Assembly (NCBI RefSeq): GCF_016908275.1
Contig: NZ_JAFBDN010000001.1
Location: 1-64,000, forward strand
Direction: 5' to 3'
Source of the DNA: Periweissella beninensis
GTDB lineage: Bacteria; Bacillota; Bacilli; Lactobacillales; Lactobacillaceae
DNA: 64,000 nucleotides
Each line of letters begins with the position of its first letter. The stretch's first letter is position 1. The translations under genes were made by a program, and so were the position numbers. Positions 4,392-55,825 of this stretch are shown in pieces. Under the pieces are notes generated by a model that was given only the letters and a program-made list of their open reading frames with translations, was not told where the DNA came from and did not search any database.

Positions 4392-4578
4392 TTTGTCGAT
4401 AAGCGCCCCGCAGCCGACATATTTTGCTGCGACAGTCTACCATCTCTTAAATGATAGCCCAACATGCTAAATTAGCGTAATTTAGCATGTTTCGGCAACC
4501 GCCCCTTTCACCTATTTTTATTGAATCGCTCATTCAAAAATAAGTTACTATTGTTGGTTGCAACCTCTTTCTCTTAAA
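4392..4578 (-). promoter_or_regulatory. Lysine riboswitch (L-box) of lysP
   Basis: Read on the minus strand, the leader shows the L-box signatures in order: GAGGTTGC, then AATAGTA, AGGTGAAAGGGGC, GTTGCCGAAAC, a 10-bp hairpin ending TTGGGCTATC, and ACTGTCGCAGC with GGGGCGCTTATCG closing the junction. These align by eye with the Bacillus subtilis lysC leader (GAGGTGCG, AGAGTA, GAAAGGGG, GCCGAAG, GGCTGTC, GGGCTATC). Some stretches differ from consensus, for example GGTTGC for GGTGCG. A terminator follows directly, so control is by transcription termination. Confidence 0.88.
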
Positions 4579-44151: not shown

Positions 44152-44694
44152 TTATTCTTCAACCACCCGCTTCGCTACGGCTTGCATTTTATAATGTTTT
44201 AAAATGTGGGCTTTCTCCCCAACAACAGTTGCGTTAGCTGGTACATCATCAACGACAACACTTCCCGCACCTACCTGTGCTGCATCACCAATGGTAATGG
44301 CACCTAATACGACTGCTTGGGCCCCAATCATGACATGATTCCCTAATTTAGGATGGCGCCGTAGCCCACTACTCGGTCCGCGATTACCTAGGGTTACCCC
44401 ATGATGTAAGGTGACATCATCACCAATAATTGCCGTCTCACCGATTACGACCCCCATACCATGGTCAATAAATAATCTCTGCCCAATTTGTGCTCCAGGA
44501 TGAATTTCAATATTGGTCCAGTGTTTCGCCCAAAAAGCACCTAGGCTAGCCAATAAGTACCATTTATGATCGTACAAAAAATGATTGATGCGATGATAAA
44601 CAATGGCATGATATCCATTATAAGTTAGCATTACTTGGAGGCGACTTTTTGCGGCTGGATCACGCTCCATGATACTATCAATAGTTTTAAACAT
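44152..44694 (-). CDS. cysE: Serine O-acetyltransferase
   Basis: CysE acetylates serine with acetyl-CoA, the committed step of cysteine synthesis. The 180-residue protein is the short Gram-positive form: a helical N-terminal part, then left-handed beta-helix repeats with IEIHPGAQIGQRLFIDHGMG (near 75-94, catalytic His) and the acetyl-CoA motif DDVTLHHGVTLGNRG. The ATG at 44694 with GGAGA is preferred; an upstream start would run into the leader repeats. A polycysteine leader peptide and attenuator precede it. No cysK or cbs gene is adjacent. Confidence 0.95.
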   Translation of the reverse strand: MFKTIDSIMERDPAAKSRLQVMLTYNGYHAIVYHRINHFLYDHKWYLLASLGAFWAKHWTNIEIHPGAQIGQRLFIDHGMGVVIGETAIIGDDVTLHHGVTLGNRGPSSGLRRHPKLGNHVMIGAQAVVLGAITIGDAAQVGAGSVVVDDVPANATVVGEKAHILKHYKMQAVAKRVVEE

Positions 44695-44705
44695 TATTTC
44701 TCCTT

Positions 44706-44935
44706 TATGAGAGTGCGATGCCACCGGTTTAACTACGCGCACTAAGTAGCTCCTTGAATGTGGCTACCAAGCCACCGAAAGTAGCGCTTAGGTAAGTAGT
44801 TTGGTGGCATTAGCACGTTTTATGAGAGTGCGGACCCACCGGTTTAACTACGCGCACTAAGTAGCTCCTTGAATGTGGCTACCAAGCCACCGAAAGTAGC
44901 GCTTAGGTAAGTAGTTTGGTGGCTCTAGCACGTTT
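44706..44935 (-). repeat. Two tandem 115-bp palindromic units in the cysE leader
   Basis: Units 44706-44820 and 44821-44935 are head-to-tail and differ at only five positions. Each unit is an imperfect palindrome: on the minus strand GTGC, CCACC, AACTAC and GCGC recur in reverse complement in the second half, around an inner GTGGC/GCCAC hairpin. All five differences fall at facing places beside the CCACC/GGTGG stem (ATG/CAT in one, GAC/CTC-type in the other), so most pairing is kept. They lie between the cys attenuator terminator and the cysE RBS, which begins exactly at the end of the second unit. No known riboswitch was recognised. Confidence 0.8.
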
Positions 44936-44943
44936 TTATCCAA

Positions 44944-45046
44944 TAAAAAATGGGCTAGTAGTTACCTACTAACCCATAGAAAATCAGAAGTCGGTAACTT
45001 TGGCATGTCAATAAACAAACTTGCCAAAGCGCCAACTAATTGAAAA
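44944..45046 (-). promoter_or_regulatory. Cys-responsive transcription attenuator of cysE
   Basis: On the minus strand the terminator is ATGGG.TAGTAG/CTACTA.CCCAT (44951-44977) with six T. The antiterminator pairs 44989-44999 (AGTTACCgACT) with 44960-44970 (AGTaGGTAACT). A competing helix pairs leader-peptide codons with the region before the antiterminator: 45076-45083 (ATGTCAAT) with 45005-45012 (ATTGACAT), and 45088-45093 (GTAACT) with 44994-44999 (AGTTAC). A ribosome stalled on Cys codons 4, 6 or 8 would cover the leader strand and free AGTTACC for antitermination. Completed translation would let the competing helix form and the terminator act. The mechanism is inferred from these pairings. 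Confidence 0.82.
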
Positions 45047-45103
45047 TTAGCAATGCTTACAAGTTTGTAATATGTATTGACATAAACAGTTACACGTAAT
45101 CAT
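45047..45103 (-). CDS. Cysteine leader peptide MITCNCLCQYILQTCKHC
   Basis: The 18-codon ORF holds five Cys codons (4, 6, 8, 15 and 18), in a genome region where Cys is rare in proteins. AAGGA lies about ten bases before the ATG and a promoter lies 45 bases further up. It stands at the start of the cysE leader, before an intrinsic terminator with an alternative fold, so translation of the Cys codons is the likely signal. The ORF is short and its spacing to the RBS is slightly long, but the fit of Cys codons to the cysteine pathway gene is specific. Confidence 0.85.
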   Translation of the reverse strand: MITCNCLCQYILQTCKHC

Positions 45104-45154
45104 CAACTAATTTTCCTTTCATCACATTTTAAATTTCAAGAAATCAACACTATA

Positions 45155-45183
45155 AGAATAGCACTCTCTTTTATAATTTACAA
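45155..45183 (-). promoter_or_regulatory. Promoter of the cysE leader
   Basis: On the minus strand TTGTAA (45178-45183) and TATTCT (45155-45160) are 17 bases apart, and TGC before the -10 gives an extended -10 element. The transcript would start near 45148. Confidence 0.6.
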
Positions 45184-45298: not shown

Positions 45299-46321
45299 TT
45301 GAACCAAGTCCAACAAATTCTTAATCAGTACGGCTTAAAACTGGTTAATTATACCCCCAATCCTGATATGGCAGCCCTTATGCCAACCCCTATTCGAACC
45401 CATATCACCTTAGCCAATGTTGTTATTAACAATCATGATTTTGTCCTGATTGACATTGATGACGACCTTAATGATGATCGGTTCATTCAATTAATTAAAT
45501 TACTGAAAAACATTCCATTTCCCGTCATCTTTATTACAGATAATTTAACTAGCGAGACACAGTTAAATATTATGCAAAATAATTTTGGCTTTATCAGTCA
45601 TAATGGGTTTTTCTTACCTGCCATTAAACCTGTTACTTTAAATAAGCCCACAATGCAATTAATTTCGTTATCTAAAAATCAACAAATTATTATTTTAGCA
45701 TTGATTTATTGGAAACTTTTACAAGATGATAATAGTAACATTTTTCATATTAAAGTCCGCCAATTAGCCAAATTTCTGGATATTACCCCAATGACCATTT
45801 CCCGTGCCTTACGGACCTTTGTCGATGCTGGCTGGCTCGCAACGAGCGGTTATACGCGTAATCATAGTTTTGCCATTCCCGCTGGTTTTGATCTTAACTC
45901 CTGGATTCAAGAAATTTTGCATTTCCTACCTAGCCCAGTTCAAAAAACGGTCTACATTCCGTTAAATGATGCTACTAAAATTACCAACAAGCGTTTAACC
46001 AACCTAACTGCTCTAAGTAAATTTACGTTAGTAGCACCTAGTGCCATGCTTAACTGGGCAATTCCAGCCAAAGACTTAACAGCTAACTTGCGGACAGTGT
46101 GCATTCCAGAGTTCAACGCCTCACTAGCACCTAAAAAACACTTGGCTGTCGAATTATGGAAATATGATGCCGCCATTTTTAGCCAGTTTTTACCAACCAA
46201 TTATCAAATTGCGGTTGATCCGATTTCGTTATACCTTAGTTTACGTAACTTCCATGATAAACAAGTTCACGAACAACTAAATGTCTTATTACAAAACTTA
46301 GTTAAACAACGAAAAAAATAA
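45299..46321 (+). CDS. Winged-helix DNA-binding protein of unknown role (AbiEi-like architecture)
   Basis: The 340-residue protein starts with TTG eight bases after AAAGGAG. Residues about 1-110 form an alpha/beta region, about 145-190 a winged helix with VRQLAKFLDITPMTISRALRTFVDAGW, and the C-terminal part ends with VDPISLYLSLRNFHDKQVHEQL. That last pattern resembles the VxPxQLYLDL region of type IV (AbiEi) antitoxin-like transcription regulators. No AbiEii-type nucleotidyltransferase toxin gene is adjacent, so a toxin-antitoxin role is not supported; a stand-alone regulator is more likely. It is divergent from the cysE leader, so it may act there. Family assignment is uncertain. Confidence 0.6.
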   Translation: MNQVQQILNQYGLKLVNYTPNPDMAALMPTPIRTHITLANVVINNHDFVLIDIDDDLNDDRFIQLIKLLKNIPFPVIFITDNLTSETQLNIMQNNFGFISHNGFFLPAIKPVTLNKPTMQLISLSKNQQIIILALIYWKLLQDDNSNIFHIKVRQLAKFLDITPMTISRALRTFVDAGWLATSGYTRNHSFAIPAGFDLNSWIQEILHFLPSPVQKTVYIPLNDATKITNKRLTNLTALSKFTLVAPSAMLNWAIPAKDLTANLRTVCIPEFNASLAPKKHLAVELWKYDAAIFSQFLPTNYQIAVDPISLYLSLRNFHDKQVHEQLNVLLQNLVKQRKK

Positions 46322-55632: not shown

Positions 55633-55705
55633 GGACAGTTAGCTCAGCTGGCAGAGCAACGGACTCTTAATCCGTGGGTCCAGGGTTCGATCCCCTGACT
55701 GTCCA
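55633..55705 (+). tRNA. tRNA-Lys (CTT)
   Basis: A 73-base cloverleaf with acceptor GGACAGT/ACTGTCC, D arm AGCTCAGCTGGCAGAGC, anticodon loop ACTCTTAAT (anticodon CTT), T arm with GGTTCGATCC and discriminator A. CCA is not encoded. It is followed 47 bases later by an identical copy. Confidence 0.96.
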
Positions 55706-55752
55706 TTACCACGCGAAGTGGTACCCCCTTATGGGACACATATTTACTGCAT

Positions 55753-55825
55753 GGACAGTTAGCTCAGCTGGCAGAGCAACGGACTCTTAATCCGTGGGTC
55801 CAGGGTTCGATCCCCTGACTGTCCA
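55753..55825 (+). tRNA. tRNA-Lys (CTT), identical second copy
   Basis: All 73 bases are the same as the gene at 55633-55705, in the same direction, and flanking bases (ATGG before, CAT after) are partly shared. The two are probably one transcript, ended by the hairpin at 55832-55879. The repeat suggests a local duplication. Confidence 0.96.

Follow-up and report, generated by a model that had tools for sequence, protein, structure and literature searches.

What controls expression of cysE in Periweissella beninensis? The stretch of its genome analyzed here, 64,000 nucleotides in full (the window), carries cysE on the minus strand (44152-44694), encoding a serine O-acetyltransferase of 180 aa (TIGR01172, 217.9 bits; cut-off 210.65). 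Ahead of the gene lie, in minus-strand order, a Shine–Dalgarno (SD) element, a short leader ORF encoding MITCNCLCQYILQTCKHC, a spacer, an intrinsic terminator and two tandem repeats. A previous sequence-only reading had proposed that this arrangement is a leader-peptide attenuator with Cys codons. Our analysis points the same way: we put the probability at about 0.8 that a ribosome-mediated transcription attenuator, sensing charged tRNA-Cys, controls cysE.

The cysE leader and its same-genus relative

The leader ORF (45047-45103, minus strand) has the sequence ATGATTACGTGTAACTGT...TGCTAA and encodes MITCNCLCQYILQTCKHC followed by a stop, with Cys at codons 4, 6, 8, 15 and 18. Its SD element, AAAGGA (45114-45119, minus strand), lies 10 nt 5′ of the ATG. 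Five Cys among 17 post-start codons has a probability of ∼1.5e-4 per ORF, given the local base composition. The terminator (44945-44977, minus strand), with the sequence ATGGGTTAGTAG-GTAA-CTACTAGCCCAT-TTTTTATT at 44977-44942, consists of a 5′ arm (44977-44966), a 3′ arm (44961-44950) and a T-run from 44950, and is the sole terminator-like site of the region (0.2 expected). These data confirm the earlier observation of an ORF with 5 Cys in 18 codons ahead of a terminator in the cysE leader. Folding of the entire leader gives a z of -6.55 versus shuffles. A promoter scan of the region gave candidates no more numerous than in shuffles. Elsewhere, the window contains a lysine riboswitch (4393-4577, minus strand) and two tRNA genes with identical scores and 47 bp between them (55633-55825, plus strand).

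The ATG of cysE (44694) is 250 nt from the terminator. Between them are two tandem, structured 113-bp repeats (44707-44934, minus strand; 44934-44822 and 44819-44707), 96% identical to each other, which probably lie outside the switch. The idea that these are tandem T-boxes or riboswitches, prompted by GGTGGCATCGC, was ruled out, with no match in Rfam. A second tandem pair is found in the same genome (G000:C22:24624-24839; L005 4624-4839), 5′ of a methyl-accepting chemotaxis gene; the structured element, 113-117 bp long, is 70-72% similar between the two pairs and has a fold z of -3.6. Because so similar a pair precedes a chemotaxis gene on another contig, we regard the repeats as dispersed. 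The window's genome has only these two pairs, and a full-length match was found in 0 of 4 other genomes of the genus.

The same-genus set comprised the window's genome and these four others, one of which (G001) encodes a closely related CysE (64% identity); cysK follows it immediately. Its leader has an SD, an ORF encoding MQTRTCQCQMIMQTC and then a terminator, GGACTAGTAG-GTAAA-CTACGAGTCC-GTTTTTTATT, before cysE-cysK. The peptide motif TC.C..Q..I.QTC, the terminator and a spacer hairpin correspond between the two leaders. In the window, this predicted hairpin is AGTTGG..CTTTGGCA/TGCCAAAG..CCGACT (44989-45037, minus strand); two of its pairs are compensatory, CTTTGGCA/TGCCAAAG in the window versus CTTTAACA/TGTTAAAG in G001. 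The other three genomes are missing both cysE and the leader, and there the flanking HTH and LytR-family genes adjoin. Judged by this pattern, leader and cysE have been gained or lost together. In G001, the attenuator and cysE are ∼900 nt apart (L007 2070-2900, minus strand), and the intervening DNA includes inverted-repeat segments (CCTGAAAATCACATTGTG / CACAATGTGATTTTCAG). Both species thus carry foldable inserts, unlike in sequence, at the same point.

Cys-rich leaders across Lactobacillaceae

Of 401 Lactobacillaceae genomes, 85 encode CysE, and these belong to 17 genera. Within 4.5 kb upstream of each cysE, we looked for short ORFs (ATG start, 12-40 codons) that have an SD, contain CC or CxC and are followed by a terminator. 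The sequence-only reading had suggested a comparison of cysE leaders within the family, and the outcome bears out a Cys-codon attenuator: a Cys-rich leader ORF plus terminator was present at 70 of 86 cysE loci on the sense strand versus 2 of 86 in the antisense control, and the stems covary (see below). Loci with a leader are spread over 14 of the 17 genera. Most leaders lie ∼2.3 kb before cysE, at the head of cysK-cgl-cysE; in other genera, scanning just the 1.5 kb before cysE returned almost none. The T-box covariance model of Rfam (RF00230) gave no match in the window, nor upstream in the 40 loci scanned; the single T-box found, in L149, sits past the cysE end.

The leaders fall into several classes. 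Class A is typified by CCCRTTRFWRCSAC, class B by CCSTTRFRCCTAC, class C by CCCGSRLMRPTSWCA and class D by CCCVPRLSRYTDCATQK; class E comprises NCCSGLINRPSLW and CCMGL types, and class F is the type seen in the window. R1, a covariance model of the main class of Cys leaders in the family, found no match in the window's genome or in G001. The window leader would work like those of the main class yet is a separate class, divergent or convergent, with one comparable leader (that of G001).

Strong copies of R1 also precede cgl alone (L229, L232, L235, L238-L241) and cysK-cgl (L236, L237, L243-L245, L248); matches above ∼E 1e-6 were left out of the counts, as hits in that range include ordinary terminators from both strands. 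The other genes preceded by leaders are sulfur-linked: cgl, a cystine ABC transporter and an OppA-like protein. At L227 and L246, Cys leaders of the GSRLMRP type (MFNSQNNINFTLCCCGSRLMRPTFWHAHK) are directly 5′ of a cystine-type ABC transporter operon (permease, ATPase and binding protein). At L230, L231, L233 and L234, strong R1 copies with CCCC leaders (e.g. MTLKSVNVQMCCCCTLRLARCSAC) precede an OppA-like peptide-binding lipoprotein, which suggests that this protein imports a cysteine-containing peptide. One genus of another Lactobacillales family has MSYAKFNAFSYSCCQTSRFGDVWLALREL and related leaders before cysK-cgl (L221-L224). Leader-controlled cysK-cgl-cysE is also carried by the Lacticaseibacillus plasmids pLC2W, pLBCZ-1, pLC1 and KF7 p1 (L214, L215, L216 and L217), with IS or recombinase genes near three of these four loci.

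In classes A-D, the codons behind the Cys run complement the 5′ arm of the terminator, for example CGCGTTTTTGG:CTAAGGGCGCG, ACACGTTTTCGA:TTGAAGGCGTGT and GCGTCTTATGCGA:TCGTATAAGACGC. Covariation in 44 leaders (30 of A and B, 14 of C and D) marks three helices, namely a hairpin immediately behind the Cys codons, an antiterminator formed by the 3′ half of the ORF and the terminator 5′ arm, and the terminator itself. Among the 30 A and B leaders, the ORF hairpin is 98.9% paired, the antiterminator 89.1% and the terminator 93.9%, percentages that favor the unslid version because the structures were read off some of the tested sequences. The antiterminator shows 32 double-change cells versus 1-8 in slid controls, and 10 of 12 terminator pairs change on both sides. 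The pairing or covariation score was reached by 0 of 500 shuffles, a control that relatedness may inflate; the slid control retains relatedness, and there the separation is still clear. In the 14 leaders of classes C and D, the antiterminator is 94.5% and the hairpin 90.7% paired. Tested directly, the duplex energy of leader against terminator arm reached significance in 32 leaders out of 64, with a mean z of -2.2. We also set the A site of a ribosome at each codon in turn and folded the RNA downstream of the ribosome. Across 53 leaders, the probability of pairing between the 5′ arm and the ORF was 0.51-0.57 for a ribosome at the first Cys codon and fell to 0.00 once it stood at the stop. These comparisons establish, at the level of sequence, a covarying hairpin, antiterminator and terminator in the other classes and, in the window, an ORF, SD and terminator that co-occur with cysE.

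Predicted pairing partners of the window terminator and competing readings

Class F offers just two leaders, so we infer the exact antiterminator of the window: the 3′ end of the ORF would pair with the terminator 5′ arm. The candidate strand, TTGCTAATTT (45044-45053, minus strand), spans the last Cys codon and the stop. With a ribosome at Cys6 or Cys8, folding predicts pairing of 45053-45044 with 44975-44966. The 5′ arm is paired upstream with a probability of 0.63, 0.76 and 0.76 when the A site is at Cys4, Cys6 and Cys8, respectively, versus 0.30 without a ribosome and 0.44 at the stop; a difference equally large was seen in 14 of 300 shuffled spacers (p ∼0.05). The same trend is obtained for G001, where the counterpart of the antiterminator is ACTTGTTAG:CTAGTAGGT and a change of stop codon (TAA/TAG) is compensated in the terminator arm. 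By itself, the energy of this specific duplex is at the level of chance (z of -0.65 in the window and +0.74 in G001), and hence the case for it in the window comes from ensemble folding and one relative. Stalling at Cys15 or Cys18 would not favor read-through, since both codons lie at or within the strand proposed for the antiterminator. In the fold predicted without a ribosome, ORF segment 45053-45044 pairs at the ribosome-binding site with GAAAATTAG (45107-45115, minus strand). This proposed protector strand, seen in the fold of a transcript truncated before the terminator 3′ arm, overlaps part of the SD and is perfectly complementary, over 9 bp, to the 3′ end of the ORF (45050-45042).

The ORF is also complementary to the spacer (45005-45083, minus strand): 45083-45075 (ATGTCAATA) with 45013-45005 (TATTGACAT), 45068-45060 with 45023-45015, and 45093-45088 (GTAACT) with 44999-44994 (AGTTAC). 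The duplex has an energy of -30.0 kcal/mol (z -5.2; 0 of 1000 shuffles). Pairing of leader codons 4-9 with the spacer had been claimed from the sequence, and we find it within 1-2 bases of that placement. The same reading built a different antiterminator on it, 44989-44999 with 44960-44970, in which codons 4-9 would hide AGTTACC (44999-44993) and a stall would free it to bind a stretch of the terminator loop and 3′ arm, GGTAACT (44966-44960). The strength of the hiding interaction is in its favor, as is the recurrence of terminator GGTAACT as GTAACT in the leader. Yet the 7-bp AGTTACC:GGTAACT helix is at chance level (z -0.9; 172 of 1000 shuffles), has no matching pair in G001, and competes with the more stable spacer hairpin, which partly locks up AGTTACC in the folds predicted for a ribosome at Cys6 or beyond. 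We therefore consider this version of the attenuator unlikely and its antiterminator probably wrong; the terminator arm is better matched by the 3′ end of the ORF itself.

Two further readings dispense with attenuation. One assigns control of cysE to its promoter and to the divergent winged-helix protein (45299-46321), leaving the leader ORF incidental. That gene is divergent from cysE in both the window and G001, and its product has a weak match to HTH_Crp_2 (E 2.8e-5, below Pfam's cut-off). But the gene is kept in all five same-genus genomes, three of them without cysE, and so is not tied to cysE; moreover, such control would explain neither the terminator, the Cys codons nor the covariation across the family. 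As the sole explanation it is very improbable, although promoter control may act in addition to attenuation. The other reading takes the leader for a remnant of a mobile element or palindromic repeat, with a terminator that ends an upstream transcript and regulates nothing. It draws on the structured repeats that adjoin the leader and on the ORF and spacer being quasi inverted repeats. However, the Cys-rich peptide and terminator are kept in G001 despite a differing intervening sequence, leader and cysE come and go together, the pattern holds family-wide, and the upstream gene is divergent, which leaves no upstream transcript to terminate. We give this reading almost no weight. As a protein, the divergent gene product (plus strand, 340 aa) matches no other Pfam family and is 64-65% conserved across the five genomes.

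Attenuation on Cys codons is thus very likely, and we infer that the leader ORF is translated and that ribosomes stall on it. RNA polymerase would transcribe the leader with a ribosome trailing on MITCNCLCQYILQTCKHC. When cysteine is ample, the ribosome would reach the end of the ORF and mask its 3′ end; the spacer would fold on itself, the terminator would form, and transcription would halt 5′ of cysE. When Cys-tRNA is short, a stall at Cys codons 4-8 would leave the 3′ end of the ORF (45053-45044) free to pair with the terminator 5′ arm (44975-44966), giving read-through into cysE. If no ribosome loads, the ORF would be held by the ribosome-binding region or the spacer, and termination would be the default. 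Weighing against this proposal are the 250 nt, with two large hairpins, that lie between the terminator and cysE.

Known attenuators and implications for lactobacilli

Canestrari (2020) reportedly described polycysteine attenuators in mycobacteria, made of leaderless short ORFs. The leaders studied here resemble those in placing a short Cys-codon ORF ahead of cysteine genes and in a putative response to cysteine. They differ in that the mycobacterial ORFs are leaderless and belong to Actinobacteria, whereas our leaders have an SD and an intrinsic terminator and, in classes A-D, a covarying antiterminator that lies within the ORF; a leaderless mRNA without an intrinsic terminator is not what the window holds, given its SD (45119-45114) and terminator. 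Cys leader peptides have been predicted in Actinobacteria, where terminator hairpins were not found (PMC1262725), and regulation by the mycobacterial polycysteine ORFs is described as translation attenuation (PMC13236596). The uORFC-8-2 motif before cysS in Rhodobacterales has tandem Cys codons, two stems and an intrinsic terminator, and attenuation by Cys-tRNA was proposed for it (PMC8632094). By description, it resembles the window in its Cys-codon uORF, terminator and proposed attenuation; it is confined to cysS in Alphaproteobacteria, however, whereas the leaders here are from Lactobacillales and precede biosynthetic and transport genes. Leader-peptide attenuators known in Firmicutes include his leaders (PMC2965389) and a leucine-rich leader in S. 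aureus (PMC5794164). As in attenuators of the trp/his/leu type, a stall on regulatory codons would select antiterminator over terminator. The amino acid is different, and in lactobacilli the 5′ strand of the antiterminator is within the ORF, where a hairpin beginning at the Cys codons sequesters it. Cysteine T-box leaders (RF00230) are likewise cis-acting antitermination devices of Firmicutes that respond to tRNA charging, but sensing here would go through translation of Cys codons.

In L. paracasei FAM18149, RNA-seq showed expression of cysK2-ctl1-cysE2 to be ∼3 log2 units (∼8-fold) higher in cysteine-deficient than in methionine-deficient medium, a contrast distinct from presence versus absence of cysteine (PMC6004538). 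The 5′-UTR had high coverage, was without a T-box, and contained AAGGGCGCGAAA-N16-TTTCGCGCCCTT; the mechanism was "yet to be discovered" in 2018 (PMC6004538). We find that a leader precedes the cysK2-ctl1-cysE2-type operon on L. paracasei plasmids and that, in the operon of pLC2W, the exact AAGGGCGCGAAA-N16-TTTCGCGCCCTT motif is the terminator of the leader MMSQSMFNAINCCCRTTRFWRCSAC. A palindromic motif, AAAGGGCGCGAA-N(11-18)-TTCGCGCCTTTT, was noted before CBS/CGL genes as a potential regulatory motif (Liu et al. 2012, as quoted in PMC6004538). This motif is what we identify as the main-class terminator; as quoted, it comes without the leader ORF or antiterminator.

Our searches of open-access literature yielded no Cys leader peptides in Lactobacillales. 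The arrangement put forward as new in the sequence-only reading is thus apparently undescribed for this order, yet it is no one-off: the window leader appears to be one divergent member of a widespread system. There is a strong probability that Lactobacillales possess a regulon of Cys-codon attenuators, covering cysK-cgl-cysE, cgl, a cystine ABC transporter and a peptide-binding protein, that replaces T-boxes or LysR control, with the window holding a separately evolved version. With the antiterminator encoded inside the leader ORF, the peptide sequence itself (e.g. CCCRTTRFWRCSAC) would be fixed by RNA pairing. Cysteine supply drives the growth of lactobacilli in milk and the formation of sulfur flavors. 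These leaders extend Cys-codon attenuation to Lactobacillales, and a shared leader gives a clue to the substrates of the transporters that carry it. They also offer a concrete, testable mechanism for the induction of cysK-ctl-cysE, and for most of the Lactobacillaceae genera that bear cysE.
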